Assembly (NCBI GenBank): GCA_032768795.1
Contig: CP136490.1
Span: 1,364,001-1,428,000, forward strand
Source of the DNA: Tremella fuciformis
Lineage: Eukaryota > Basidiomycota > Tremellomycetes > Tremellales > Tremellaceae
Reading direction: 5' to 3'
DNA: 64,000 bases
Below the pieces are notes generated by a model. That model saw only the letters and a list, made by a program, of their open reading frames with translations. It was not told the origin of the DNA and ran no database searches. A program made the position numbers and the translations under genes. Below are positions 3,414 to 17,776 of the stretch, piece after piece; the first letter of the stretch is position 1, and each line of letters opens with the position of its first letter.

Positions 3414-4239
3414 CCGCCACCTTCGCCGCACTCCCAATCTTGACGCCAGCTATTCCTGATACCCCAGACCTTTTCCATATACCTGTCGCGATCGCAAACA
3501 AACAATCACTAGTCTCCCGAGCGCTGCTCGACACCGGGGCCTCCCGGAACTTTATAGAGAAAACCTACGCCATCGAGTCGAAACTCGAATTGCGCCCTTC
3601 TAGAATCAAACAGACCCTACGATTAGCGGATGGCTCCCGCAGCGCTATCGAACAAGAGGTTACCCTCACCCTCTTGCTAGGGGAAGGGTTCCAGCCTTAC
3701 ACAGCTACATTTCTGGTCGCCAGACTAGATGTGGGCCCCATCATCCTGGGGGCGCCATTCTTCAAAGAAGTCAAGCCAACGCTCGACTGGGATAACCTGG
3801 CCATTCAACCTCCTCCCTCGAGATCACACCAGGGCAAGTCGGGAAAACTAAAAGCAATCTCCCTCATCTCGGCCGAGGCATTCGAACAGATTACGGACGA
3901 ACCCAAGGGGGCGATCTACCTACGAGCCATCTCCGTGGACCCACCTCGGATGGAGGAAGTGGTACCTACGGAATACCACGAGTTCCTGGATGTCTTCTCG
4001 GAGTCGGAGGCCACCAAGCTACCTCCTCATAGGCCTTTCGACCACCGCATCCCGCTACTCGACGGCGCTGAGCCGACATTCGGCCCGATCTACTCGCTGT
4101 CCGTGACCGAACAGGAGGCCCTCCGAGACTACTTGGATACGAACCTCAAGAAAGGCTTTATCGTACCTTCGGAGTCGCCAGCGGCCTCGCCAATTTTATT
4201 CGTAAAGAAGAAAGACGGATCCTTACGCCTCTGCGTGGA
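3299..4239 (+). pseudogene. Outer element Pol, 5' part (protease and start of RT)
   Basis: The frame opens after a stop at 3296-3298 and lies -1 to gag; the first possible non-ATG start is GTG 3410. It contains a retropepsin-like aspartic protease with the DTGAS active site (about 3530), then the Ty3-type LPPHRPFDHRI linker and the RT entry (SPILFVKKKDGSLRLCVD). It stops inside the CVDYRK motif, where the inner element is inserted after GTGGA (4235-4239). The frame resumes at 13151 with TAC CGC AAG, so Pol was intact before the nested insertion: 830 nt from GTG 3410 plus 2,713 nt give 1,180 codons without a stop. Confidence 0.9.
4235..4239. repeat. Inner element target duplication, left copy (GTGGA)
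   Basis: GTGGA precedes the inner 5' LTR; the right-hand copy at 13146-13150 reads GAGGA. The single mismatch is at the second base. GTGGA is the ancestral form because it restores the conserved CVDYRK codons of RT. Confidence 0.8.
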
Positions 4240-5011
4240 TGTCAGGAAACCGACACGGCATCCTGACCACGAGACTACCACGAGGCAACTTCCGACGGAA
4301 ACATCCAAAGGATCCTACGAACCGAAGAACGTGAGTACGATAGAACCGTCACTATTAGTCACGAATAACTACGACTTGCTCTTGAAAGCGCTGGAACAAC
4401 CTGGAGAACGATAGAAGGATACGTCTCAGTCTTCCATCGGCCGAGTTGAGATAGGAACGCACGCAAGGACAAGAGTCAGGTCCACGATAACGGAGGATAG
4501 AGTTATCTCACAGTCAGGGCCACGGGGCGGAGACCGAGGACGATAAGGACGACGACGGGCACGCAAGGAGATTAGATGCAAGCCAGCGCGGAGAGAAGAC
4601 GATAGAAGAGAAGAGAGACGACGAGAGAATACTAGAGAGTATTGGGAACGAGTAGAAGCGACTAGGAGAACGATGGAACGATCCACGAAGGACGATGCTA
4701 GAAGGATCAGAGTGAGAGCGGGCGAGAGTCAGCAGATACTTAAGAAGGAAGATCGCAGAGGAAGTTCCTCAGCGATCTAGTTAACTAGTCCTCTAGATAG
4801 AACGTCTACTTAGAGAATCGACCGTACCAGTGACGAGAGATAGATAAGTGAAGTGAGTCTTGATCGCTCCTCACCCAGCTTGGTTCCACTCTACTCTTGT
4901 TCGTTACTATCTGTTACGAATAGTCGTTGATAGTTAGCAGCTTGAATCGATAGGTTGATTTAGGTGAGCTTTAGTTGGATCTAAAACAGGTCACCGGGTA
5001 CAGGTCTGACA
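4240..5011 (+). repeat. Inner element 5' LTR
   Basis: 772-bp LTR, TGTCAG...CTGACA, reading identically to 12374-13145. It is rich in GA on the plus strand. It holds a TATA-like GATACTTAAG (about 4735-4744) some 30 bp before 4771, the inferred start of R. The minus-strand open frame inside it (4426-4686, repeated in the 3' LTR) is judged chance. Confidence 0.95.
4735..4783 (+). promoter_or_regulatory. Inner LTR promoter core and mRNA 5' end used as primer
   Basis: A TATA-like stretch near 4738 is followed by AGCGATCTAGTTA at 4771-4783, the exact complement of the primer site at 5014-5026. By analogy with Tf1, 4771 would be the first base of the transcript. The site overlaps the palindrome CTAGTTAACTAG. 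Confidence 0.65.
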
Positions 5012-5013
5012 GA

Positions 5014-5026
5014 TAACTAGATCGCT
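5014..5026 (+). other. Inner element primer-binding site (self-priming type)
   Basis: TAACTAGATCGCT begins two bases after the LTR end at 5011 and is a perfect 13-nt complement of 4771-4783 within the LTR. Spacer and layout equal those of the outer element. Confidence 0.75.
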
Positions 5027-5060
5027 CATATCCTTCGACAAGCCACCAAATCAAGACGAC

Positions 5061-6305
5061 ATGTCCTCTGCACCTACGACCGGGTACGGCCTTAGGAACC
5101 GAGGCGCGACAGGCAATCCCGACGCAGAGCATGAGCTGATCACTCCTCCCACTGGGACTACCACGGAGGAAGGAGAAGGAGCCCAAGGTACGCCAGGCGT
5201 GTACGAGCCAGGCGCTCAAGAAGACACGATGGAGTCTACCCAGGATGATGGGCTCTCTTCGATCAGGACCCAACTCGATAAGATTGGTGAGGCACTATTG
5301 CTGTTGAGTCAGAATCAAAGGATGATGGCTGAGCATCGAGTGAACCAATTCGAGACTAATACGAACAAATCGAACAACAAGGAACCAAAGGTCAACTCTC
5401 CGGACGAGTATCAAGGAGAAAGGAACAAGCTCACCGGATTCCTGACGCAGTGTCAGCTGGTCTTCGACTTACAACCAGCCCGATACGCCACCGACTATGC
5501 CAAGATCCGATATATGATATCGTTCTTTAGGAAGGCGCCATTGCACTCTATTGAGGCGCACTTAGCTAAGGATGTCGACGATCAGCCTAGATGGCTTCAC
5601 GATTACGGGTTGTTTATCAAACACATCAAACGAACCTACGGAGATCCAGATGAAGTTCATACAGCCGAACGGAAACTATTAGCGATCCAACAAAAGTCTT
5701 CTGTTACGAATTACTTTGCAGAGTTCGAACAGTTATCATCATTGCTGGATTGGCCCGATTCGGTCCTCATCGCCAAGGCTAGGGAAGGCTTGAAGCCCTC
5801 TCTCAAGGACGCCATCGCTACCAAGGTGGAGGAAATCCCTAAGACCTGGAACGACTTTGTCACGGTGATCACGAGACTTGATGAACGCATGTTCGAGCGG
5901 GAACAAGAGAAGAAGAACGAACAAGGACGCCCAGAGAGGCACGAACAACGACAAATAGAGACGAATAGTGGGCGAGTGCGACCAACCGTTACCAGTTTTA
6001 ACCGCTCATCAGAAACCAGCACAGTCAAGAGCACTCAGCCACCGCGTGCGACCACCCCATGGAATGGCAACCCATTTGCGGGCCTGGGTATGCGACCACG
6101 CCTGAGTGAGTTCGAGAAGCAGAGACGAAAGGATTCGGGCTTATGCTTTTCCTGCGGACAGAGTGGTCATCAGGCCAAGGACTGTTCGCAATCGACGCGA
6201 TCTCAAGGAACGGTGGTCTCTTCCAATGCTACGAACACCTACCAGCGTACCACGACCCCTTCTACGAGCTCGCAACAGTCAAAAGTAAGCGCCCCGTCGA
6301 ATTGA
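5061..6305 (+). CDS. Inner element Gag
   Basis: Capsid-nucleocapsid protein of 414 aa from ATG 5061, the first ATG after the primer site. Order: an acidic, glycine-rich N-terminus; a coiled stretch near residues 70-100; the retrotransposon-gag core beginning SPDEYQGERNKL and containing a YGDPDE patch; a basic, low-complexity linker; a CCHC zinc knuckle (CFSCGQSGHQAKDC, about residues 361-374); a Ser/Thr-rich tail. Pol overlaps the last 160 nt in the -1 frame. The motif order matches the outer Gag, with low overall identity. Confidence 0.92.
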   Translation: MSSAPTTGYGLRNRGATGNPDAEHELITPPTGTTTEEGEGAQGTPGVYEPGAQEDTMESTQDDGLSSIRTQLDKIGEALLLLSQNQRMMAEHRVNQFETNTNKSNNKEPKVNSPDEYQGERNKLTGFLTQCQLVFDLQPARYATDYAKIRYMISFFRKAPLHSIEAHLAKDVDDQPRWLHDYGLFIKHIKRTYGDPDEVHTAERKLLAIQQKSSVTNYFAEFEQLSSLLDWPDSVLIAKAREGLKPSLKDAIATKVEEIPKTWNDFVTVITRLDERMFEREQEKKNEQGRPERHEQRQIETNSGRVRPTVTSFNRSSETSTVKSTQPPRATTPWNGNPFAGLGMRPRLSEFEKQRRKDSGLCFSCGQSGHQAKDCSQSTRSQGTVVSSNATNTYQRTTTPSTSSQQSKVSAPSN

Positions 6306-9300
6306 GAGGGAGTCGGGGCTCAAACAAACCTCTCACTCTAGGTGCGGCATTCGAGAATTATAACGGAACAGAATTTATTGGGGACGAACTACTACCAAAA
6401 AGATCAATTGTATGCTACGATAACATGACCGAGAATCTACGATTGAGGGTACTCCTAACTGGCGGCCGGGCAAAGCTCCAGTGCGGATTCCCTTCCTTAT
6501 ATTGCCGACAAGGATATCTCTCCAACATCCTGTTCGACACTGGAGCCAGCTCCTGCTTTGTCGACTGGAGGTCAGAGATAGCCCAGACCTTAAACCACAC
6601 CGTGATCGAACGACCCAAACACGTAGTAATGTTTGATGGACGTACAAGCGCGTTTGGTCTGGTTCACACCTATATCGACACGAACATCCAACTTCATCCC
6701 GAATATCCCCCAATAGATGTCAAATTGCTTGTGACAGAATTAAATGGGGCCGACATTGTATTGGGATGGCCGTGGATGGCCGAGAACGGAGTAACCATTG
6801 ATGCGAGGCATGGATGGGCTGAGTTCCCGTGCACTCCTGTGGTGAGAAAACCACACAGACGAAAAGGGAAGGCTTACAGGAAGCCCTATGCGTCCGGGAC
6901 GACCTATCCCAACAACATCGAGATCGCGGAAAGCGGCAATCGATGGAGACCGATCTCAGTAACCCAGGAAGGTTCTGGCGAGGCCGGAATAAGCAACGAT
7001 GGCGAAGGAGCAACAGAAACGAATAGCTACGAAGAAGCGCCAATGGCGGACGATCCTCTTGAAAGGGCTGGGACGGAAGACGGGACTCCCGTACTCAGTG
7101 ACCCTTCTACGATGAATGATGAGTCAAGCGATGATTCTAGTGGAATCTACGACGATTACAAATACGGCAAGGATGAAGCCGGAACCGATCCGGAGGACTG
7201 GACGGCAATCGAAGATTTGCAAGATGTGACTATTTGGAACAAATGGGGACGAATAGCACTTGAGGAGAAAGAATACGACCAAACAAGGGTAGAGGTGAAC
7301 GGAGTAACCGCCAGTGAGAGCGACTCGTACACGACCTTGAACGAGAAAGAACAGTCTTCGGCAAAGGAAAGCAAGATTCCAGAGGCCTACCAAGGATGGG
7401 AAGACTTGTTTGAAGAACCGAGTGGGTCGGCAGCGCTGCCGCCACATCGACCGTACGACCACAGGATAGAACTAAAGGAGGGAGGTAAGCTGCCTCTTGC
7501 TCCTCTCTATCAACTATCTCCGAAGGAAAAGAACGCCTTACACGAATACTTGGAAAAGGAGAAAGCGGAAGGAAAGATATACCATTCGTTATCACCTTAT
7601 GGATCGCCGGCGTTCTTTGTCCCGAAGAAAGACGGACGCTTACGACTAGTCGTGGACTATCGCAAGCTAAATGAAGCCACAGTAAATAGCGCCTATCCGT
7701 TACCATTAATCTCGCAGATCTTGGCAGATCTACGTGACGCACGGTTCTACACGAAGCTGGATTTGGCAGGGGCCTATCAGCTGGTGCGGATGGCTGAAGG
7801 ACACGAACACCTGACGGCGTTCAGGACTATCTTTGGTATGTTCGAGTCCACTGTGATGAGAGATGGCCTAAAAGGGGCTCCCGCAACGTTCCAACATTTT
7901 ATGAACGATATATTTTCGGAACTAATAGGGAAAGGTGTCTACGTATATATCGACGACATTCTCATTTACGCGAAAACGGTTGAAGAACTTCGAGCTCTTA
8001 CCAAGACAGTCTTCGATATACTACGACAATGGGAGCTTCGACTAAAGGCAGCAAAATGCGAGTTCGAGAAAGACAGCATTACATTCTTAGGACACAGGGT
8101 GTCTGCAGAGGGGATAGCAACCGACGAAGGACTAACAGAAACTATTAGGAACTTCCCTATCCCGACTACACAGAAAGAACTACGATCTGCGGTGGGTCTT
8201 TTCAGTTACTACCGAAGATTTGTACCCAACTTCTCGGGAATTGCGAGACCTCTCAACAAGTTGATGTCGAAGAAAGCAAGGTTTATTTGGAACGAAGAGG
8301 CTGACAAGGCATTCCAGTCGCTGAAGGGTGCCCTGTCATCACCGCCTATTCTCGGGCACTTCGATCCAGAGCTCCCGATAGAGGTACACACGGATGCCTC
8401 GGATTTCGCCATTGGGTATGTGATCTACCATGTGGATCGCAATACCATGAAGCGAACGGCAATCCATTATGGCTCAGCAAGACTCAAACCGAATGAGGAG
8501 AACTGGACTGTCACCGAGAAGGAATTATTCGCAATTATTTATTGCTTACAGCATCATCGAGCATATTTCGAGGGCAGTAAGTGGCCAATAATATTCGTCA
8601 CCGACCATCAGCCCTTGATAGGGTATACCATGCCGAAGCAGGTATCAAACAGGGAGGCCAGATGGGCAGAGATCCTGGCTCGCTTCGATCTACGAATAGT
8701 GTACACCCCAGGTAAGGGCAATGTGGTACCAGACGCCCTGTCGCGACGACCTGACCTGGCAGGGACAAGAGGCGGCGACATCTACCAAACGGACTCGAAG
8801 GTTCGACAGGTGATCGAGACAATCGATGCTGAGAACGAATTGGACCAAATAGTGACGAACTTAGAAGAGTCAAAGAAGACAGCTTCTATCGTCAAAGACC
8901 AGGAACCCCTTGAAATGTATGGGGTTACAACGACCGAATCACCCAGTACAGCAGACCCGAACACGTATGACTGGATCATCGATGGGAGCAGAGTAAGGGA
9001 AGGGTATATGAAGGACGAGCAGTGTAGGCAAATCATCGAAGGGATTGCCGCACAGAAGCCGCTCGAGGATATTAGGAACGAATTGCGACTATCAAGCGAT
9101 ACTAGAGTCGAAATAGACCAACAAGGATTCATCCGCATCGACGGCAAGATCTATATCCCAGACTACGATGATTTGAGGTTCAAGATCATAAATTCACGAC
9201 ACGATACTCCGTTGGCAGGACATCCAGGAGTTAAGAGGACTATGAAGGCGGTTCAACGGGACTATTACTGGCCTGGGCTCACGGCGCACGTCACCAAGTA

Positions 9301-10636
9301 CGTGTCGAGCTGCACAGCCTGTCTGCGCACCAAGCCTTTCAACCAGAGACCAAGAGGTCAGCTACGAACCTTGGAAGTTCCACGCCTACCGTTCGAGGAC
9401 ATCACGATGGACTTCATCGAAGAGCTACCAGTCTCAAACAACTTCAATTCGATACTAGTAGTGGTCGATCGCTTGACAAAGTACACGGTGCTCATACCCA
9501 CGGTAACAAAGTTGAACGCACCCGAAATGTGTTCGTTACTATTCGATACGGTTTTCTCCAGATACGGACTGCCGAGCACGATTGTATCCGACAGGGGAAG
9601 TAAATTTGTGTCAGACTTCTGGAGGAGCCTAACGGAGCAATTCGACATACGATTGGCACTCAGCACGGCAAGAAGGCCGCAGACTGACGGTCAAACCGAG
9701 CGACATAACCAGAAGGTAGAAGGATTCATGAGGATCTTCACCAACTTCGACCAGGACAACTGGGCACCGTTGTTGGCATTCGCCCAGTTCGCCATCAACA
9801 ACGCCCATCACGATACGATAGGAATGACCCCGTTCTATGCGCTACACGGATTTCATCCTAGATGGGTTCAGGAAATATTAGAACCGAATAAAGTCGACAA
9901 TCAGCAAGCAAGACAACGTGCGAACTCAATGAATGAGGTGCACTCAATCTGCAGGGAGAACTATGTGCGAGCAGGGAAGGAGATGGAGAAGTACTACAAC
10001 AGGAAGCATCAGCCTCAAGTCGAGATCAAGGACGGGGACTATGTCATGTTGGACCTTGAGGGCCTTAACACGAAACGACCCAGCAAGAAACTCGACTACA
10101 GGCGAGATGGACCCTTCCAGGTGGAAGAGTCAATAGGAACACACGCGAAGAAATTAAAGTTACCAGCGACGCTCAAGATCCACAATGTTTTTCATGTGTC
10201 CAGACTGCATCCGGTCGACGTTATTAGCGTCGAAGACAAACGAATACGACCAAAAGGGCAACCACAAGGACTACCAACTATAGTGGAGCCTGATGCTGAA
10301 TTTGAAGTCGAGAGGATTCTGGACTCAAGGAGAACAAGGAATGGAAAGGTCGAGTACCTAGTGGAGTGGAGAGGCTACGGGGATGATGAAGTGGGCTGGG
10401 AGCCGGAGGTGAACGTCAGAAACGCGGCAGAGGTTGTAAGAACATTCCACGAGCGACACCCCGACAAGCCAATTGGTCACACATTCGGAGGAATCAAGAA
10501 AGATAGGAGCTATTCGAAACGAATAAAGACAAATAGCGACAAAGAAGAGCCTATACGACCTAATAAACGACAACGAACTCAAGAGTCAGTCAGGCAAGAG
10601 GCCGGGCACAGGCATAATCTAAGAAGTCGTCAGTAA
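6143..10636 (+). CDS. Inner element Pol polyprotein with chromodomain
   Basis: 1,497 aa in the -1 frame relative to gag, probably made as a Gag-Pol fusion by frameshifting; ATG 6143 lies within gag. Order: aspartic protease (DTGAS, about residue 130); a long acidic linker; reverse transcriptase (LVVDYRKLN near 500, catalytic YIDD near 603); RNase H (TDASDF near 752, DALSRR near 870); integrase with an HHCC zinc finger (HxxxxxGHPG ... CTAC, about 1015-1055) and a DDE core (MDF near 1088, SDRGS near 1150, TDGQTERHNQKVE near 1183); C-terminal chromodomain (about 1385-1440, VERILDSR ... YLVEWRGYG ... WEPEVNV). Chromodomains steer chromovirus integration to marked chromatin. No disabling change seen. 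Confidence 0.95.
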   Translation: MLFLRTEWSSGQGLFAIDAISRNGGLFQCYEHLPAYHDPFYELATVKSKRPVELRGSRGSNKPLTLGAAFENYNGTEFIGDELLPKRSIVCYDNMTENLRLRVLLTGGRAKLQCGFPSLYCRQGYLSNILFDTGASSCFVDWRSEIAQTLNHTVIERPKHVVMFDGRTSAFGLVHTYIDTNIQLHPEYPPIDVKLLVTELNGADIVLGWPWMAENGVTIDARHGWAEFPCTPVVRKPHRRKGKAYRKPYASGTTYPNNIEIAESGNRWRPISVTQEGSGEAGISNDGEGATETNSYEEAPMADDPLERAGTEDGTPVLSDPSTMNDESSDDSSGIYDDYKYGKDEAGTDPEDWTAIEDLQDVTIWNKWGRIALEEKEYDQTRVEVNGVTASESDSYTTLNEKEQSSAKESKIPEAYQGWEDLFEEPSGSAALPPHRPYDHRIELKEGGKLPLAPLYQLSPKEKNALHEYLEKEKAEGKIYHSLSPYGSPAFFVPKKDGRLRLVVDYRKLNEATVNSAYPLPLISQILADLRDARFYTKLDLAGAYQLVRMAEGHEHLTAFRTIFGMFESTVMRDGLKGAPATFQHFMNDIFSELIGKGVYVYIDDILIYAKTVEELRALTKTVFDILRQWELRLKAAKCEFEKDSITFLGHRVSAEGIATDEGLTETIRNFPIPTTQKELRSAVGLFSYYRRFVPNFSGIARPLNKLMSKKARFIWNEEADKAFQSLKGALSSPPILGHFDPELPIEVHTDASDFAIGYVIYHVDRNTMKRTAIHYGSARLKPNEENWTVTEKELFAIIYCLQHHRAYFEGSKWPIIFVTDHQPLIGYTMPKQVSNREARWAEILARFDLRIVYTPGKGNVVPDALSRRPDLAGTRGGDIYQTDSKVRQVIETIDAENELDQIVTNLEESKKTASIVKDQEPLEMYGVTTTESPSTADPNTYDWIIDGSRVREGYMKDEQCRQIIEGIAAQKPLEDIRNELRLSSDTRVEIDQQGFIRIDGKIYIPDYDDLRFKIINSRHDTPLAGHPGVKRTMKAVQRDYYWPGLTAHVTKYVSSCTACLRTKPFNQRPRGQLRTLEVPRLPFEDITMDFIEELPVSNNFNSILVVVDRLTKYTVLIPTVTKLNAPEMCSLLFDTVFSRYGLPSTIVSDRGSKFVSDFWRSLTEQFDIRLALSTARRPQTDGQTERHNQKVEGFMRIFTNFDQDNWAPLLAFAQFAINNAHHDTIGMTPFYALHGFHPRWVQEILEPNKVDNQQARQRANSMNEVHSICRENYVRAGKEMEKYYNRKHQPQVEIKDGDYVMLDLEGLNTKRPSKKLDYRRDGPFQVEESIGTHAKKLKLPATLKIHNVFHVSRLHPVDVISVEDKRIRPKGQPQGLPTIVEPDAEFEVERILDSRRTRNGKVEYLVEWRGYGDDEVGWEPEVNVRNAAEVVRTFHERHPDKPIGHTFGGIKKDRSYSKRIKTNSDKEEPIRPNKRQRTQESVRQEAGHRHNLRSRQ

Positions 10637-10703
10637 CTATTAGTCCCAAATAGCACCCAGTGCGAATGAGGACTTCATAGGTACAACGATAAATGACTAT
10701 ATG

Positions 10704-12063
10704 CTACATTTCCCTATTCTTCCTCTTCAGCGACTCCAAAGTACGAACAGCTGCCTCGGCTTCACCTATCTGGGAAATGCGCGAATGTATGTCCGCAAAA
10801 GTGCCCGCAGGGATAGTGACTGTCCCGGAGGTAGACGAATTCAATCGAGCGCGTTCGAGTCCCTTCAGACCTTCCTTGAGGGAAAGGAAATGCTCTCGTA
10901 AAACCTGAAGATAAGGCGCGGGGTCTGAGAAAGAACATGCCGAAGTGCACACAGCACAGCGAATTGAGCCTGGCTTGACTCGACAAACAAGCTTGGCCTT
11001 GAGACAGCCTCGGCACGGTGGAACCGAGACCGGATATTTTTGCTGTTCGGCGAACTTCTCATTTGAAAGTGGGCGCGTGCCGCGAGCAGCACGCTTGGGC
11101 GGCGCCTCACCGGCCTTAAGTTCGGACGGCCGTTTGTAGGGCGGGGGGACATCGACAGTGTGGGACTATTCGTTACTATTAACCCCAAACAGTACGAGAT
11201 CACTTGCCTTCGGAACAAACTTAGACGGGGTCTGACTCGCGTGGGCGGCTGACATGAACGTGGCATAGTCCTACAATTAGTTACTATTCGTAACGAATAG
11301 AAACTACTCACAATGGCCAGGATCTCGTCGGGATCAACTGATTCCGGAGTGGACGGAATGGGTTTGGTCTCGTCGAGCTCGCGAATAGGAGTATCGACAA
11401 TGGCGCGTTGTTTCCCTTTCCCCTTGGAACCCTTCTTGCGAGGGGGTTCGGACTCTGTCTCCGACGAGTCCAGCTCGTCTTCGATGGCGGGGGGATCGGA
11501 GGAAAGAAGGAAGGCTGCTATTAGTTGCGGATAAAATCGAATAGGAACGACTTACTAGGGTCTTCATCGACGTTACCCTCGGGATCAGTAGTCTCGGATC
11601 CATCTGGAAACTATTAGGAACGAATACACACGAATACAAGAAAACAAACACACCTTCGGATTTGTTGTCAACCTCCGGGGCGGGCGACGAAGTCTTGTCT
11701 TGGGCGGTGTTCAGAGGGGCAGTGGGGGCACGTTCGAGAGCAGCGGGAGCTGAGACGGTATCGGCGGGGGCGAGAGGCTGGGTGACGCCTTCTCCATCCG
11801 AGAGAGTGGGGAGGGCAGGTGTCTCATCTGCTATTAGTGACAAATACGAGCGAGTAGTAGTAACTCACTCGGGTCCGCATCCATCTGGGTGAGATCTTGT
11901 CGGGTTTCGTTTGACGGAGCCAACTCGTCCAACTCAGGCAGGGGCGTCATAGCGGGCGAGGTGGACTTGCGCGTGAAGCGTCCCTTATGCTCTTGGTCAG
12001 TAATAGCCACGAACATGATCGAGTACTCACACGTCGTTGGGCGGATGCGCGAGAGCGGGCCAT
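10704..12063 (-). CDS. Antisense accessory gene of inner element, Cys-cluster protein
   Basis: Seven exons (12063-12031, 11989-11869, 11830-11654, 11603-11556, 11517-11312, 11270-11208, 11165-10704) separated by introns of 38-50 nt join into one open frame of 369 aa. Introns 1-5 are GT-AG with CTGAC/CTAAT branch points; intron 6 is best read as GC-AG (GCAAGT). The N-terminal two thirds are acidic and rich in Pro, Ser and Thr, with a basic KKGSKGKGKQR patch. The last exon holds a basic stretch and C-x2-C-x6-C-x8-C-x2-C-x3-C, like a shortened Zn2Cys6 cluster, followed by a leucine-rich, probably coiled helix. That suggests DNA or RNA binding (inference). The gene converges on pol: its stop is 67 bp after the pol stop. 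Function unknown; an unrelated captured host gene is the alternative. Confidence 0.75.
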
Positions 12064-12359
12064 AGGGGGTACGCCAAAGGTCAAGAAAAGTAGATGTACG
12101 AACGAACAACGAGAGGGCGCAGTCACGCCCTTATGTATCCGGCGGTGTCTATCGGCAAAACGGCGTTACGAGTAAAAACGAGTATGAGGCAGGCGCAAGA
12201 GCGAGCGGTTGCTAGGCAACTAGGGTGACAACTCGCAGATGCTCGACATGTAGAAAGTCGTTGCTAGGCAACGGGACGATAAGCGACAACCGATAGGCGG
12301 TATCAAGAACAAATAAAAATCAGTCGCGACTAATCTTATCATGAAGGGACTCATGATGT
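12064..12359 (-). promoter_or_regulatory. Upstream region of the inner antisense gene with two palindromes
   Basis: Noncoding stretch between the antisense start codon and the polypurine tract. It contains GTTGCTAGGCAAC twice (12208-12220 and 12260-12272, 52 bp apart), an inverted repeat GTTGC/GCAAC with a 3-base centre that resembles an RFX-type X-box. It is a plausible promoter for the antisense gene. Role inferred only from position and symmetry. Confidence 0.5.
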
Positions 12360-12373
12360 AAAGGAGGGAGGAG
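12360..12373 (+). other. Inner element polypurine tract
   Basis: AAAGGAGGGAGGAG directly abuts the 3' LTR, the place and composition of a plus-strand primer. Confidence 0.85.
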
Positions 12374-13145
12374 TGTCAGGAAACCGACACGGCATCCTGA
12401 CCACGAGACTACCACGAGGCAACTTCCGACGGAAACATCCAAAGGATCCTACGAACCGAAGAACGTGAGTACGATAGAACCGTCACTATTAGTCACGAAT
12501 AACTACGACTTGCTCTTGAAAGCGCTGGAACAACCTGGAGAACGATAGAAGGATACGTCTCAGTCTTCCATCGGCCGAGTTGAGATAGGAACGCACGCAA
12601 GGACAAGAGTCAGGTCCACGATAACGGAGGATAGAGTTATCTCACAGTCAGGGCCACGGGGCGGAGACCGAGGACGATAAGGACGACGACGGGCACGCAA
12701 GGAGATTAGATGCAAGCCAGCGCGGAGAGAAGACGATAGAAGAGAAGAGAGACGACGAGAGAATACTAGAGAGTATTGGGAACGAGTAGAAGCGACTAGG
12801 AGAACGATGGAACGATCCACGAAGGACGATGCTAGAAGGATCAGAGTGAGAGCGGGCGAGAGTCAGCAGATACTTAAGAAGGAAGATCGCAGAGGAAGTT
12901 CCTCAGCGATCTAGTTAACTAGTCCTCTAGATAGAACGTCTACTTAGAGAATCGACCGTACCAGTGACGAGAGATAGATAAGTGAAGTGAGTCTTGATCG
13001 CTCCTCACCCAGCTTGGTTCCACTCTACTCTTGTTCGTTACTATCTGTTACGAATAGTCGTTGATAGTTAGCAGCTTGAATCGATAGGTTGATTTAGGTG
13101 AGCTTTAGTTGGATCTAAAACAGGTCACCGGGTACAGGTCTGACA
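12374..13145 (+). repeat. Inner element 3' LTR
   Basis: 772 bp, reading the same as 4240-5011. It is followed by GAGGA (13146-13150), the right-hand target copy with one mismatch. Confidence 0.95.
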
Positions 13146-13150
13146 GAGGA

Positions 13151-15895: not shown

Positions 15896-17575
15896 TCACT
15901 TGCGGCGGCCGCGCTTCGTCTTGAGGGCGCCAAGCGCGGCGCGCTGTGGCGCCTTCGCCTCGCTAGCAGTCTTCTCCTTGGTCTGCAGTCGGGTCGTGCG
16001 GTGCGGGATGTCGGATTCCGACTCGAGGGACTCAGCTCGGGCAGACAGAAGTCGAGTAACCGAGTGGTGCCGGTCGGGAGACGAGTGAATGGAGGGCGCG
16101 GGCGAGTCCTCCAATAGCCGCTTCAAACCACCCCCACCAACCACCGAGGGACCCGCAACCCCCTCCTCAGCGCCTTCGGCCATCGCGTCGTCCAAAGAGC
16201 TCCAGTCGAGTGTAGACACCAACGGAGGATCACCCGAGTCTAGCAGAGCGACTTGAGACTCGCCGCGGAATGCAGTCCGGTTCAAATGCTGCAAGTCAGA
16301 TCTCGACAAGACCAAGACGAAATCCGACTACACTTACCTGATATTCGGAGTAATTGATTCTATAGATCTCCAAGATAGCATTACGGGCCAGACCGGGTTT
16401 CGCGTCTGCAAGTAGAGCTGCCGCCTGGCGGTGAATCCCTGCGATAACACCCTTACGACGAACGACCTCGTCGGCAGGGAGGACGAGTTGAGCTCGGGGC
16501 CCAAGAGCGGTGTTGGGCGAAAGGGTGCAGTGTTTCGACTTGAGCATACACCCAAGACACCTATACGTCAGCGAAAATCGAGTACGGTAAGTCGAAAACA
16601 TACTTCTGCGCCACATACCGCCTACCATCGACCTCCACAACCGGACAGACGCAGAGTAGACCCGAGTAGCCCGACATGGGAGGGCGATTATGGGACACAC
16701 AGGCTGCACAACGCTCCGCCCCCATCAGGACCCCCCACGAGCCGGAGTCGAGCGCTTCGAGGATGTTCGACCCGGTATCCGCGGTGTCGCCAGTACGAGT
16801 CGAAATGTACGACTCGATCCACGAGTAGAAGGACTCGATCCTCGAGTCGTCGTGTCCAACGACCTCCGGTTCTTTCAGCGGGTACCGATACACGCGATTC
16901 AGACGCTTGACCACCAGCTCTTCGCCTTCAACCCTCGGGAACACCCCACTAGGAGTTCGACCTGCCTTGGTCGGCGAAGGAGTAGGGATCGGCTGACCCG
17001 GGCTCGAGTCGGGGGCCGAGCCGAACAAGTCGCTCAGACCGACCTCAGTAGCCGAAGACACGACTTTGGCAGGCGGAGATGCGGCCTTAGGGAAGCCCAA
17101 AGGGCGATGAGCATGACCCTTTTGACTAGCCGGTGTCTCGGGAATGCTGCTCGAGCCGAAGGGTGGTTGACGAGAGATAGGAGAGGGATCCAAGATGTGT
17201 TTCTTGGGTGAGAGACGACCGATGGGAGCAAGGGGAGCCTTGAAAGGCGATTGAATAGGCGGGAATACCGACTCAGCACGAGCAGGAGTCGACTTTACGG
17301 GAGAGGAACCCTAACAGCTTAACTCGAAATTCGTCTACTGGCATTCGACTCACGGATTTATCCCTTTCTCGACGTAAAGCCGCCTTCCCCGCAGCAACCA
17401 GCTTGTCGACCTCAAACTTGAAAATGGCATTTTCGGGCTGCGCTTCGAGGTTCTCTCGAGCGGCCTGGAGTTGAATTCGGTAGTCGTCCACAGAGGCCGT
17501 ACCGAGGTACGCCTCATCGTAGGCATCTTGTATGCCCTGCTCAACATTGAATCCGGCCAGCTCGTCGTCGACCAT
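15896..17575 (-). CDS. Antisense accessory gene of outer element, Cys-rich protein
   Basis: Four exons (17575-17354, 17310-16604, 16560-16338, 16288-15896) with introns of 43, 43 and 49 nt (GTGAGT, GTATGT and GTAAGT starts; CTGTTAG, GTATAG and CTGACTTGCAG ends) join into 514 codons with no stop. The N-terminus is acidic and helical (MVDDELAGFNVEQG), then a Pro/Ser-rich stretch. Next comes a cysteine region with CAAC, CVC and then CLGCMLKSKHC, that is C-x2-C-x6-C, assembled exactly across intron 2. A helical region and a Ser-rich, finally basic tail follow (ends KTKRGRRK, a possible nuclear signal). Position, orientation and the C-x2-C-x6-C cluster match the inner element's antisense gene; overall sequence is otherwise different. 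Function unknown. Confidence 0.75.
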
Positions 17576-17776
17576 GAGGAGAACAGTACGAAAGACGACT
17601 CAAGAAAGACGAAGTCCGGACACAACAACCAGAACAACAACTTGCATGAAGGAGTAAACAACGGCGTCTCTCGGGCTTACGGGCGTGGCATCTACCTCAA
17701 CGAACCGAACACACAGTGCCAAAGGACGCAACGTCGAATAAAGGATGTCAACAACCGAGGATGTCGGGTCGACATC

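Follow-up and report, generated by a model that had tools for sequence, protein, structure and literature searches.

Antisense genes located after pol are already established in LTR retrotransposons of plants and have been reported for the Boty element of Botrytis, as described in the cited sections of PMC7264820, PMC11963269 and PMC8365987. The plant cases comprise gene23 of Grande, RIRE2, TRP28 of Retand and PvRetro13, which are additional ORFs lying antisense between pol and the 3' LTR, and nuclear localisation or DNA binding is proposed in the same sections for some of the products (PMC7264820, PMC11963269). Boty-like elements of Botrytis cinerea carry the additional antisense gene brtn (Zhao et al. 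2011, as cited in PMC8365987 and PMC7264820). The HTLV antisense genes HBZ, APH-2, APH-3 and APH-4 are expressed as spliced antisense transcripts; APH-2 is nuclear, and APH-3 and APH-4 suppress transcription driven by the 5' LTR, according to the relevant sections of PMC10186651. In the passages cited from PMC5735166, VANC21 binds to a short motif, and the density of this motif in the element that encodes VANC21, introns included, matters; loss of methylation is demonstrated for VANC.

The gene described here lies antisense between pol and the 3' LTR of an element in the window, by which we mean the whole stretch of 64,000 nucleotides that was analysed. As far as the cited sections describe the plant genes, it resembles them in position, strand and presence in many copies, and with Boty, compared by its cited description only, it has in common that an LTR element of a fungus bears an extra antisense gene. 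Neither 'intron' nor 'zinc' appears as a word in the main text of PMC7264820 or PMC11963269, and the titles and abstract openings surveyed name no multi-intron antisense gene, antisense zinc cluster or dispersed dyad in an LTR element. For years, antisense genes of LTR retrotransposons have been catalogued without an assigned function. The window offers a selected, intron-bearing antisense protein of a plausibly DNA-binding type, beside a candidate binding site obtainable as a synthetic oligonucleotide.

The carrier is a complete chromodomain Ty3/gypsy element (Metaviridae) at 4240-13145. Its pol follows the Ty3/gypsy domain order RT, RNase H, integrase and chromodomain, and its paired LTRs are bordered by the 5-bp flanks GTGGA and GAGGA, with one mismatch. 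The LTR ends were set at TG...CA, the computed repeat match being 2 bases longer. The original prediction of a complete LTR retrotransposon is thus borne out by the identical 772-bp LTRs, the flanking duplication and the presence of gag and pol. The main parts are as follows.

4240-5011, plus strand: 5' LTR, 772 bp, identical to the 3' LTR, TG...CA ends
5061-6305, plus strand: gag ORF, 414 aa, with Retrotrans_gag and a CCHC knuckle
6143-10636, plus strand: pol ORF, 1497 aa, with RT, RNase H, integrase and chromodomain
12374-13145, plus strand: 3' LTR, 772 bp, identical to the 5' LTR

The gag and pol ORFs overlap at 6143-6305, where pol is in another frame, which suggests a frameshift for pol expression. 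The insertion flanks at 4235-4239 and 13146-13150 form a 5-bp duplication with one base different. The element is nested in the RT region (LCVDYRK motif, read from the sequence) of an outer gypsy element, repeat pieces of which are found at 1762 and 17779. The genome spans 28.1 Mb in 11 contigs and, with its very short introns, is probably fungal.

The minus strand between pol and the 3' LTR carries a gene of seven predicted exons, which keeps one frame through six introns.

10704-12063, minus strand: antisense accessory gene, seven predicted exons, 367 aa
12031-12063, minus strand: predicted exon 1, ATG at 12063
11869-11989, minus strand: predicted exon 2, alternative start at 11983
11654-11827, minus strand: predicted exon 3, antisense-frame omega 0.36 and 0.30
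11556-11603, minus strand: predicted exon 4, from the spliced-frame model
11312-11514, minus strand: predicted exon 5, antisense-frame omega 0.59 and 0.31
11208-11270, minus strand: predicted exon 6, from the spliced-frame model
10704-11165, minus strand: predicted exon 7, ending in the stop codon (10704-10706), with long predicted helices after the six-cysteine cluster, omega 0.07/0.15
10935-11015, minus strand: six-cysteine cluster C-x2-C-x6-C-x8-C-x2-C-x3-C, its cysteines invariant in 8 aligned sequences

The single frame claimed at first for a minus-strand gene of seven exons and six short introns was recovered, with introns of 41-50 nt, and the splicing itself is a prediction from sequence. 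The length had to be corrected: the best model gives 367 aa and not 369 aa, or 365 aa when a second acceptor ends intron 1 at 11984 (47 nt), and enumeration yields 369 aa solely through weak donor sites or with exons 4-6 in another frame. Intron 6 needs a GC-AG pair to hold the frame, and GC-AG is found there in 22/22 places of the gene in this genome; the host actin gene, read by eye, has an apparent GC-AG intron of similar length. The exons are GC-rich (58%) and the introns have 39% GC, and the N-terminal part of the product is Ser/Pro-rich. Upstream of the antisense ATG, the window lacks a base at 12143, and the base at 12065 is missing from most other copies.

Copies of the gene reveal how it has been maintained. 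The genome gave 24 matches, which resolve into 22 places with the window copy included, so that the gene is retained in most family copies when pol-only fragments are left out of the count. All 127 antisense introns covered in these places keep GT/GC...AG and none has a deletion; one intron copy has a 1-nt insertion, and in the copy on C4 the probable branch point of intron 4 is changed from CTAAT to CTATT. Two of the 22 places have a premature stop (L020 and L022), and four are interrupted or incomplete, namely L026 and L028 (gene interrupted), L027 (first exon missing) and L029 (internal deletion). In L028, a segment of about 5 kb with 765-bp terminal direct repeats (L028:1543-6535), likely another LTR element, splits the antisense gene of the copy on C9.

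The divergent copies show purifying selection on the antisense frame. Compared with the window copy, C4 has 83% DNA identity (dS 0.56, dN 0.11, whole-gene omega 0.20) and C9 has 93% (dS 0.18, dN 0.043, whole-gene omega 0.24), the scarcity of non-synonymous changes having a binomial P of 1.5e-19 and 2.3e-9, respectively. Omega is 0.24-0.36 in the group L022-L026 (98% alike) and 0.17 in the partial L029; the other copies, with at most six coding changes each against the window, are little informative for omega. Omega was further computed per exon in all six frames for exons 3, 5 and 7. In exon 7 the antisense frame is the lowest of six in both comparisons (0.07 with C4, 0.15 with C9), and the mirrored sense frame, with which it has third positions in common, gives 0.23 and 0.31; the remaining four frames exceed 1. 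The signal is weaker in exons 3 and 5. For exon 3, the antisense frame has 0.36 against C4 (next frame 0.68) and 0.30 against C9 (a sense frame 0.26), and for exon 5 the values are 0.59 (next frame 0.61) and 0.31 (a sense frame 0.32). Hypermutability of CpG was rejected as the cause of the low omega, since the gap between fourfold and non-degenerate sites persists at non-CpG sites. The indels in the exons are all multiples of three (C4 and C9 each lack 6 nt, and C4 has 3 nt inserted); those outside the antisense gene are mostly of 1 nt, and single-base ones occur in most copies. The interval between pol and the 3' LTR is therefore no spacer, as had been claimed, since an antisense frame in it is under purifying selection.

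The original prediction had also taken the introns as fitting long residence in the element, reasoning that introns on the antisense strand are not removed when the element is copied via its sense RNA, and the retention of 127/127 agrees with that reasoning. The 22 places, the complete retention of covered introns, the purifying selection and the equivalents in other gypsy families (see below) support, at the level of sequence, a long residence of the antisense gene. A regional contrast was observed in L027/L037, which differ from the window at about 32% of fourfold sites in the antisense gene and 19% in pol, with 12% (27/227) in the antisense introns; regional recombination may be a partial cause.

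Equivalents of the gene were found when the genome was searched with last exons and the match counts per family were tallied from the listings. The families F2/F2b gave 27 matches that span 150 or more of the 194 residues, of which 26 are free of stops, and further last-exon matches numbered 23 in F4, 6 in F3 and 10 in F5. Orientation was checked on representatives only, these being L031-L034 (F2), L048 (F2b), L035/L036 (F3), L047 (F4) and L049/L053 (F5), and in every one of them the cysteine cluster is antisense to pol and directly follows the chromodomain end. Judged from these representatives, an antisense six-cysteine gene is present in five divergent gypsy families of this genome, the pol of the other families being about 41-45% identical to the window pol in the best segments. 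All six cysteines are conserved without exception across 8 aligned sequences (five families plus a subfamily), and the last spacing, x3 in the window protein, is x4 or x5 in the other families. The antisense frame of the last exon again has the lowest omega of the six frames, at 0.22-0.29 in F2/F2b and 0.14 in F3. One cysteine has been lost in L050, a decayed relative, and the exon of the L033 copy is broken.

The outer element has an antisense gene of its own between pol and the 3' LTR (15898-17577, minus strand). Inspection by eye shows one or more likely introns in it, and its protein does not resemble that of the window element. Its central exon (16564-17193) is matched 17 times over its full or nearly full length with no stop, and has omega of 0.13 and 0.14. 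Since several families and the outer element carry antisense genes, such genes are a habit of the gypsy elements examined, with the canonical cluster or without it.

Furthermore, when genome records of prokaryotes were searched with the pol alignment, 37 gypsy loci were returned (L054-L090), which are evidently eukaryotic contaminants. Thirty-one of the 37 were screened for the cluster pattern and for long ORFs after pol, and antisense ORFs were read in seven. Two loci from a bin labelled Erythrobacter, L062 (found by the cluster pattern) and L064 (found by reading its ORF), encode an antisense six-cysteine protein after pol in open frames of 218 and 431 aa. The L062 protein has its cysteine cluster followed by a long predicted helix, and 21 relatives at E <=0.01, one of them named from Lachnellula arida. 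The lack of a cluster in the other foreign loci weighs little because many of the tails after pol are short. Pattern matches in L065, L067, L070 and L079 look like low complexity and were set aside. Searches with the spliced window protein (no homologs at E <=10 among 7998 scored candidates) and with the eight-sequence alignment A3 (none among 7987 candidates) carry little weight, and scans of viral contigs with pol, the pol alignment and the L062 family gave no confirmed relative.

What kind of protein this gene encodes can be approached from its cluster, which matches exactly the pattern C-x2-C-x6-C-x8-C-x2-C-x3-C read in the first place. The Zn2Cys6 family (PF00172) has the pattern C-x2-C-x6-C-x5-12-C-x2-C-x6-8-C, so the last spacing in the window, x3, is shorter than the x6-8 of that family. 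Pfam returned no zinc-cluster match, PF00172 being absent at E up to 1 and up to 10, and no bZIP family match was found for the antisense protein. The AlphaFold model of exon 7 is poor (mean pLDDT 57.5) and has helices after the cluster. Foldseek with this model listed eight PDB chains, from PUT3, PPR1, HAP1 and 1cld, at E of 1.2-9.3, individually not significant; 1cld, listed as 'DNA-binding protein', is presumably LAC9, and we take all of these chains to be Zn2Cys6 regulators. The unanimity of the eight matches is suggestive, with scores that are not significant. The L062 model, better than that of exon 7 (mean pLDDT 78.8), had no PDB fold match, and PDB sequence searches gave PUT3 at a non-significant E of 0.37-0.45 with the alignment A5 and one irrelevant match with A3. 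Modelling and cluster together suggest that the antisense product is likely a DNA-binding protein of the zinc-cluster type, with a predicted zinc cluster and predicted dimer-forming helices after it.

A candidate site for such a protein is repeated through the element itself. The heptamer ACGAATA occurs 15 times in the element against 1.4 expected, and alignment of its sites gives a 15-bp dyad, TATT[CA]G-N3-C[GT]AATA, which was scored as a site at 10 or more of 12 letters. The element has 19 dyads in 8134 bp with a spacer of 3; any other spacer from 0 to 8 gives 0-4, and shuffled sequence gives 0.65. Outside the element there are 2 in 45 kb of flanking window and 3 in the outer element, and the dyad is nearly absent from F2. 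The sites, with the introns that hold six of them, are listed below.

4353-4367, no strand assigned: dyad in the 5' LTR (12/12), same at 12487 in the 3' LTR
4640-4654, no strand assigned: dyad in the 5' LTR (10/12), same at 12774 in the 3' LTR
4908-4922, no strand assigned: dyad in the 5' LTR (10/12), same at 13042 in the 3' LTR
5347-5361, no strand assigned: dyad in gag (11/12)
5953-5967, no strand assigned: dyad in gag (10/12)
7913-7927, no strand assigned: dyad in pol (11/12)
8284-8298, no strand assigned: dyad in pol (10/12)
9070-9084, no strand assigned: dyad in pol (11/12)
9446-9460, no strand assigned: dyad in pol (10/12)
9876-9890, no strand assigned: dyad in pol (12/12)
10222-10236, no strand assigned: dyad in pol (11/12)
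10511-10525, no strand assigned: dyad in pol (12/12)
10638-10652, no strand assigned: dyad directly past the pol stop (11/12)
11166-11207, minus strand: predicted intron 6, 42 nt, GC-AG, dyad at 11167-11181 (11/12)
11271-11311, minus strand: predicted intron 5, 41 nt, dyad at 11285-11299 (12/12)
11515-11555, minus strand: predicted intron 4, 41 nt, dyad at 11519-11533 (11/12)
11604-11653, minus strand: predicted intron 3, 50 nt, dyad at 11612-11626 (12/12)
11828-11868, minus strand: predicted intron 2, 41 nt, dyad at 11832-11846 (11/12)
11990-12030, minus strand: predicted intron 1, 41 nt, dyad at 12001-12015 (10/12)

Within gag-pol there are 9 dyads, whereas 2000 synonymous-codon shuffles averaged 1.9 and never had more than 6 (0/2000 reach 9). 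Since the letters of the dyad had been chosen beforehand on the whole element, the cleaner test is one in which the seed is chosen in the tail only and counted in pol; it gave 7 against 0.38, a number reached in 0/200 shuffles. Each of the six antisense introns contains exactly one dyad and the antisense exons contain none. With the introns making up 18.8% of the gene, the placement of 6/6 has a binomial P of 4.4e-5, a value that ignores their AT-richness (39% vs 58% GC); shuffled introns, which allow for AT-richness, contain 0.05 in total. The right half-site of some intron dyads is, in sequence, also the branch point CTAAT. That the dyads are merely branch points with acceptors was rejected, as several sites in the LTR, gag and pol have CGAATA and not CTAATA. 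A stem would lose a base pair to the A that is common in the left half-site, which argues for DNA recognition as likelier than an RNA hairpin.

Sites still scoring at least 10 number 11 of the 14 covered in C4 and 18 of 19 in C9. No extra conservation of dyad positions was found, whether over all positions (21/240 changed in dyads vs 630/6274 elsewhere for C4, 12/323 vs 286/7767 for C9) or at degenerate third positions in pol (4/40 vs 267/1410 for C4, 3/40 vs 94/1399 for C9), and the case for the dyad therefore rests on its abundance, spacing and placement.

The same tail-to-pol procedure yields a different, GC-rich motif in F2 (0/200 shuffles) and a weaker motif in the outer element (1/200 and 0/200 shuffles in two runs). 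The F2 motif, with 17 occurrences in 7 kb of F2 and 8 and 4 in 45 kb of flanking window, is given less weight because it is GC-rich, partly tandem and also present in flanks. The F2 element has near its 3' end (L032:6683-6740) a partly tandem CTCGAGTAGCCTCGACGACG-like repeat related to this motif. Among the foreign loci, 12 of 37 were put through the procedure. The ten that lack a recognised antisense cluster all came out without a recurrent dyad; they are poor controls, at least two of them having an AT repeat as top seed. The remaining two gave no dyad (L062, with a tail of 779 bp) and a weak one at most (L064, 16/200), and the pieces of F4 and F5 gave no clear dyad.

Taken together, we propose that the selected antisense gene encodes what is likely a dimeric zinc-cluster protein, and that this protein binds the dyad scattered through its own element, a reading whose chances we judge to be evenly balanced. 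The dimer made from the antisense gene would bind dyads in the LTRs, gag, pol and the antisense introns, and the bound dyads would mark the element's own copies and counter their silencing, by analogy with VANC in VANDAL transposons. The introns would be tolerated as the element copies itself via the sense RNA, where they stay unspliced, and each of them would also carry one binding site. By analogy, the effect of binding may be to counter silencing, as with VANC, or to act on LTR transcription, as with the HTLV antisense proteins; the former is favoured because the sites span the whole element and not only the LTR. The broader version would hold for the chromodomain gypsy elements of this genome: a family-specific dimeric zinc-cluster protein from the antisense, intron-bearing gene and a matching dyad operator, one copy of it in each antisense intron, would form a VANC-like self-recognition that counters silencing and evolved independently in LTR retrotransposons. 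It is put forward tentatively, as less likely than not. Three roles had first been suggested for the gene: target choice, silencing escape and copy-number control. Our results point to a putative role in self-recognition by DNA binding.

A regulator of the antisense promoter or of host genes, with dyads bound by a host factor or reflecting a compositional habit, would agree with the strongest constraint falling on the last exon with its cysteine cluster, with the lack of extra conservation in the dyads, and with the HTLV spliced antisense products, which act on transcription through host factors in the sections cited from PMC10186651. We consider it unlikely, if worth serious attention, in view of the fixed dyad spacing, the near absence of the dyad from the 45-kb flanks and from F2, and the recurrence of tail-trained seeds in pol, where F1 and F2 each have a seed of their own sequence and the outer element has a weaker one, against 0/10 in the foreign gypsies that serve as weak controls. 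Quite improbable is a role in integration or targeting, in which the protein would tether the preintegration complex together with the pol chromodomain: the antisense gene does accompany a chromodomain-bearing pol in the representatives examined, but no link to integrase was found, the chromodomain alone could suffice for targeting, and the dyads lie inside the element and not at the target. A gene acting mainly as antisense RNA could pair with gag-pol RNA, feed dsRNA silencing and limit copy number. Any antisense transcript of the gene could base-pair with the 3' portion of the genomic RNA, and such a role is discussed for plant antisense ORFs in the cited part of PMC7264820; protein-level selection (omega 0.07-0.15 in exon 7, 0.13-0.29 in other families) is unexpected for a function of RNA only, and makes this account very improbable. 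A chance open frame in low-complexity, GC-rich DNA, as the 58% GC of the exons and the Ser/Pro-rich N-terminal part might suggest, is hardly credible when, of the six frames of exon 7, just the antisense one and its mirror have an omega well under 1, with 127/127 introns intact and exon indels of just 6, 6 and 3 nt.

If self-recognition through the antisense protein and its dyad is correct, LTR elements would gain a means to recognise their own DNA, the persistence of introns inside a retroelement would be explained, and there would be a test of how families diverge in specificity without mutual interference.

Compared with the known systems, the window element differs from the plant elements in its dispersed dyad, which is not mentioned for them in the sections cited from PMC7264820 and PMC11963269, and from Retand in its chromodomain, Retand belonging to a non-chromovirus lineage. 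The HTLV antisense genes, as described in the cited sections, likewise lie antisense in a retroelement and are spliced (in the window, as predicted); HBZ, a bZIP protein, has a promoter located in the 3' LTR, whereas the window gene encodes a six-cysteine cluster and has six predicted introns within the coding sequence. Fungal Zn2Cys6 regulators of the PUT3, PPR1, HAP1 and GAL4 type share with the window protein six cysteines and helices after the cluster, and the window protein departs from them in having no Pfam match, a last spacing of 3 and not 6-8, and a retrotransposon as its coding element. VANDAL is a DNA transposon, whereas the carrier in the window is an LTR retrotransposon with a protein for which no homologs were found among the candidates scored; VANC is compared by description only. 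The motifs of VANC are often tandem repeats in the passages cited, unlike the dyads of the window. Like VANC as described there, the window system joins an element-coded protein to a short, dense motif in its own element, introns included, the motif being present here as a candidate binding site.
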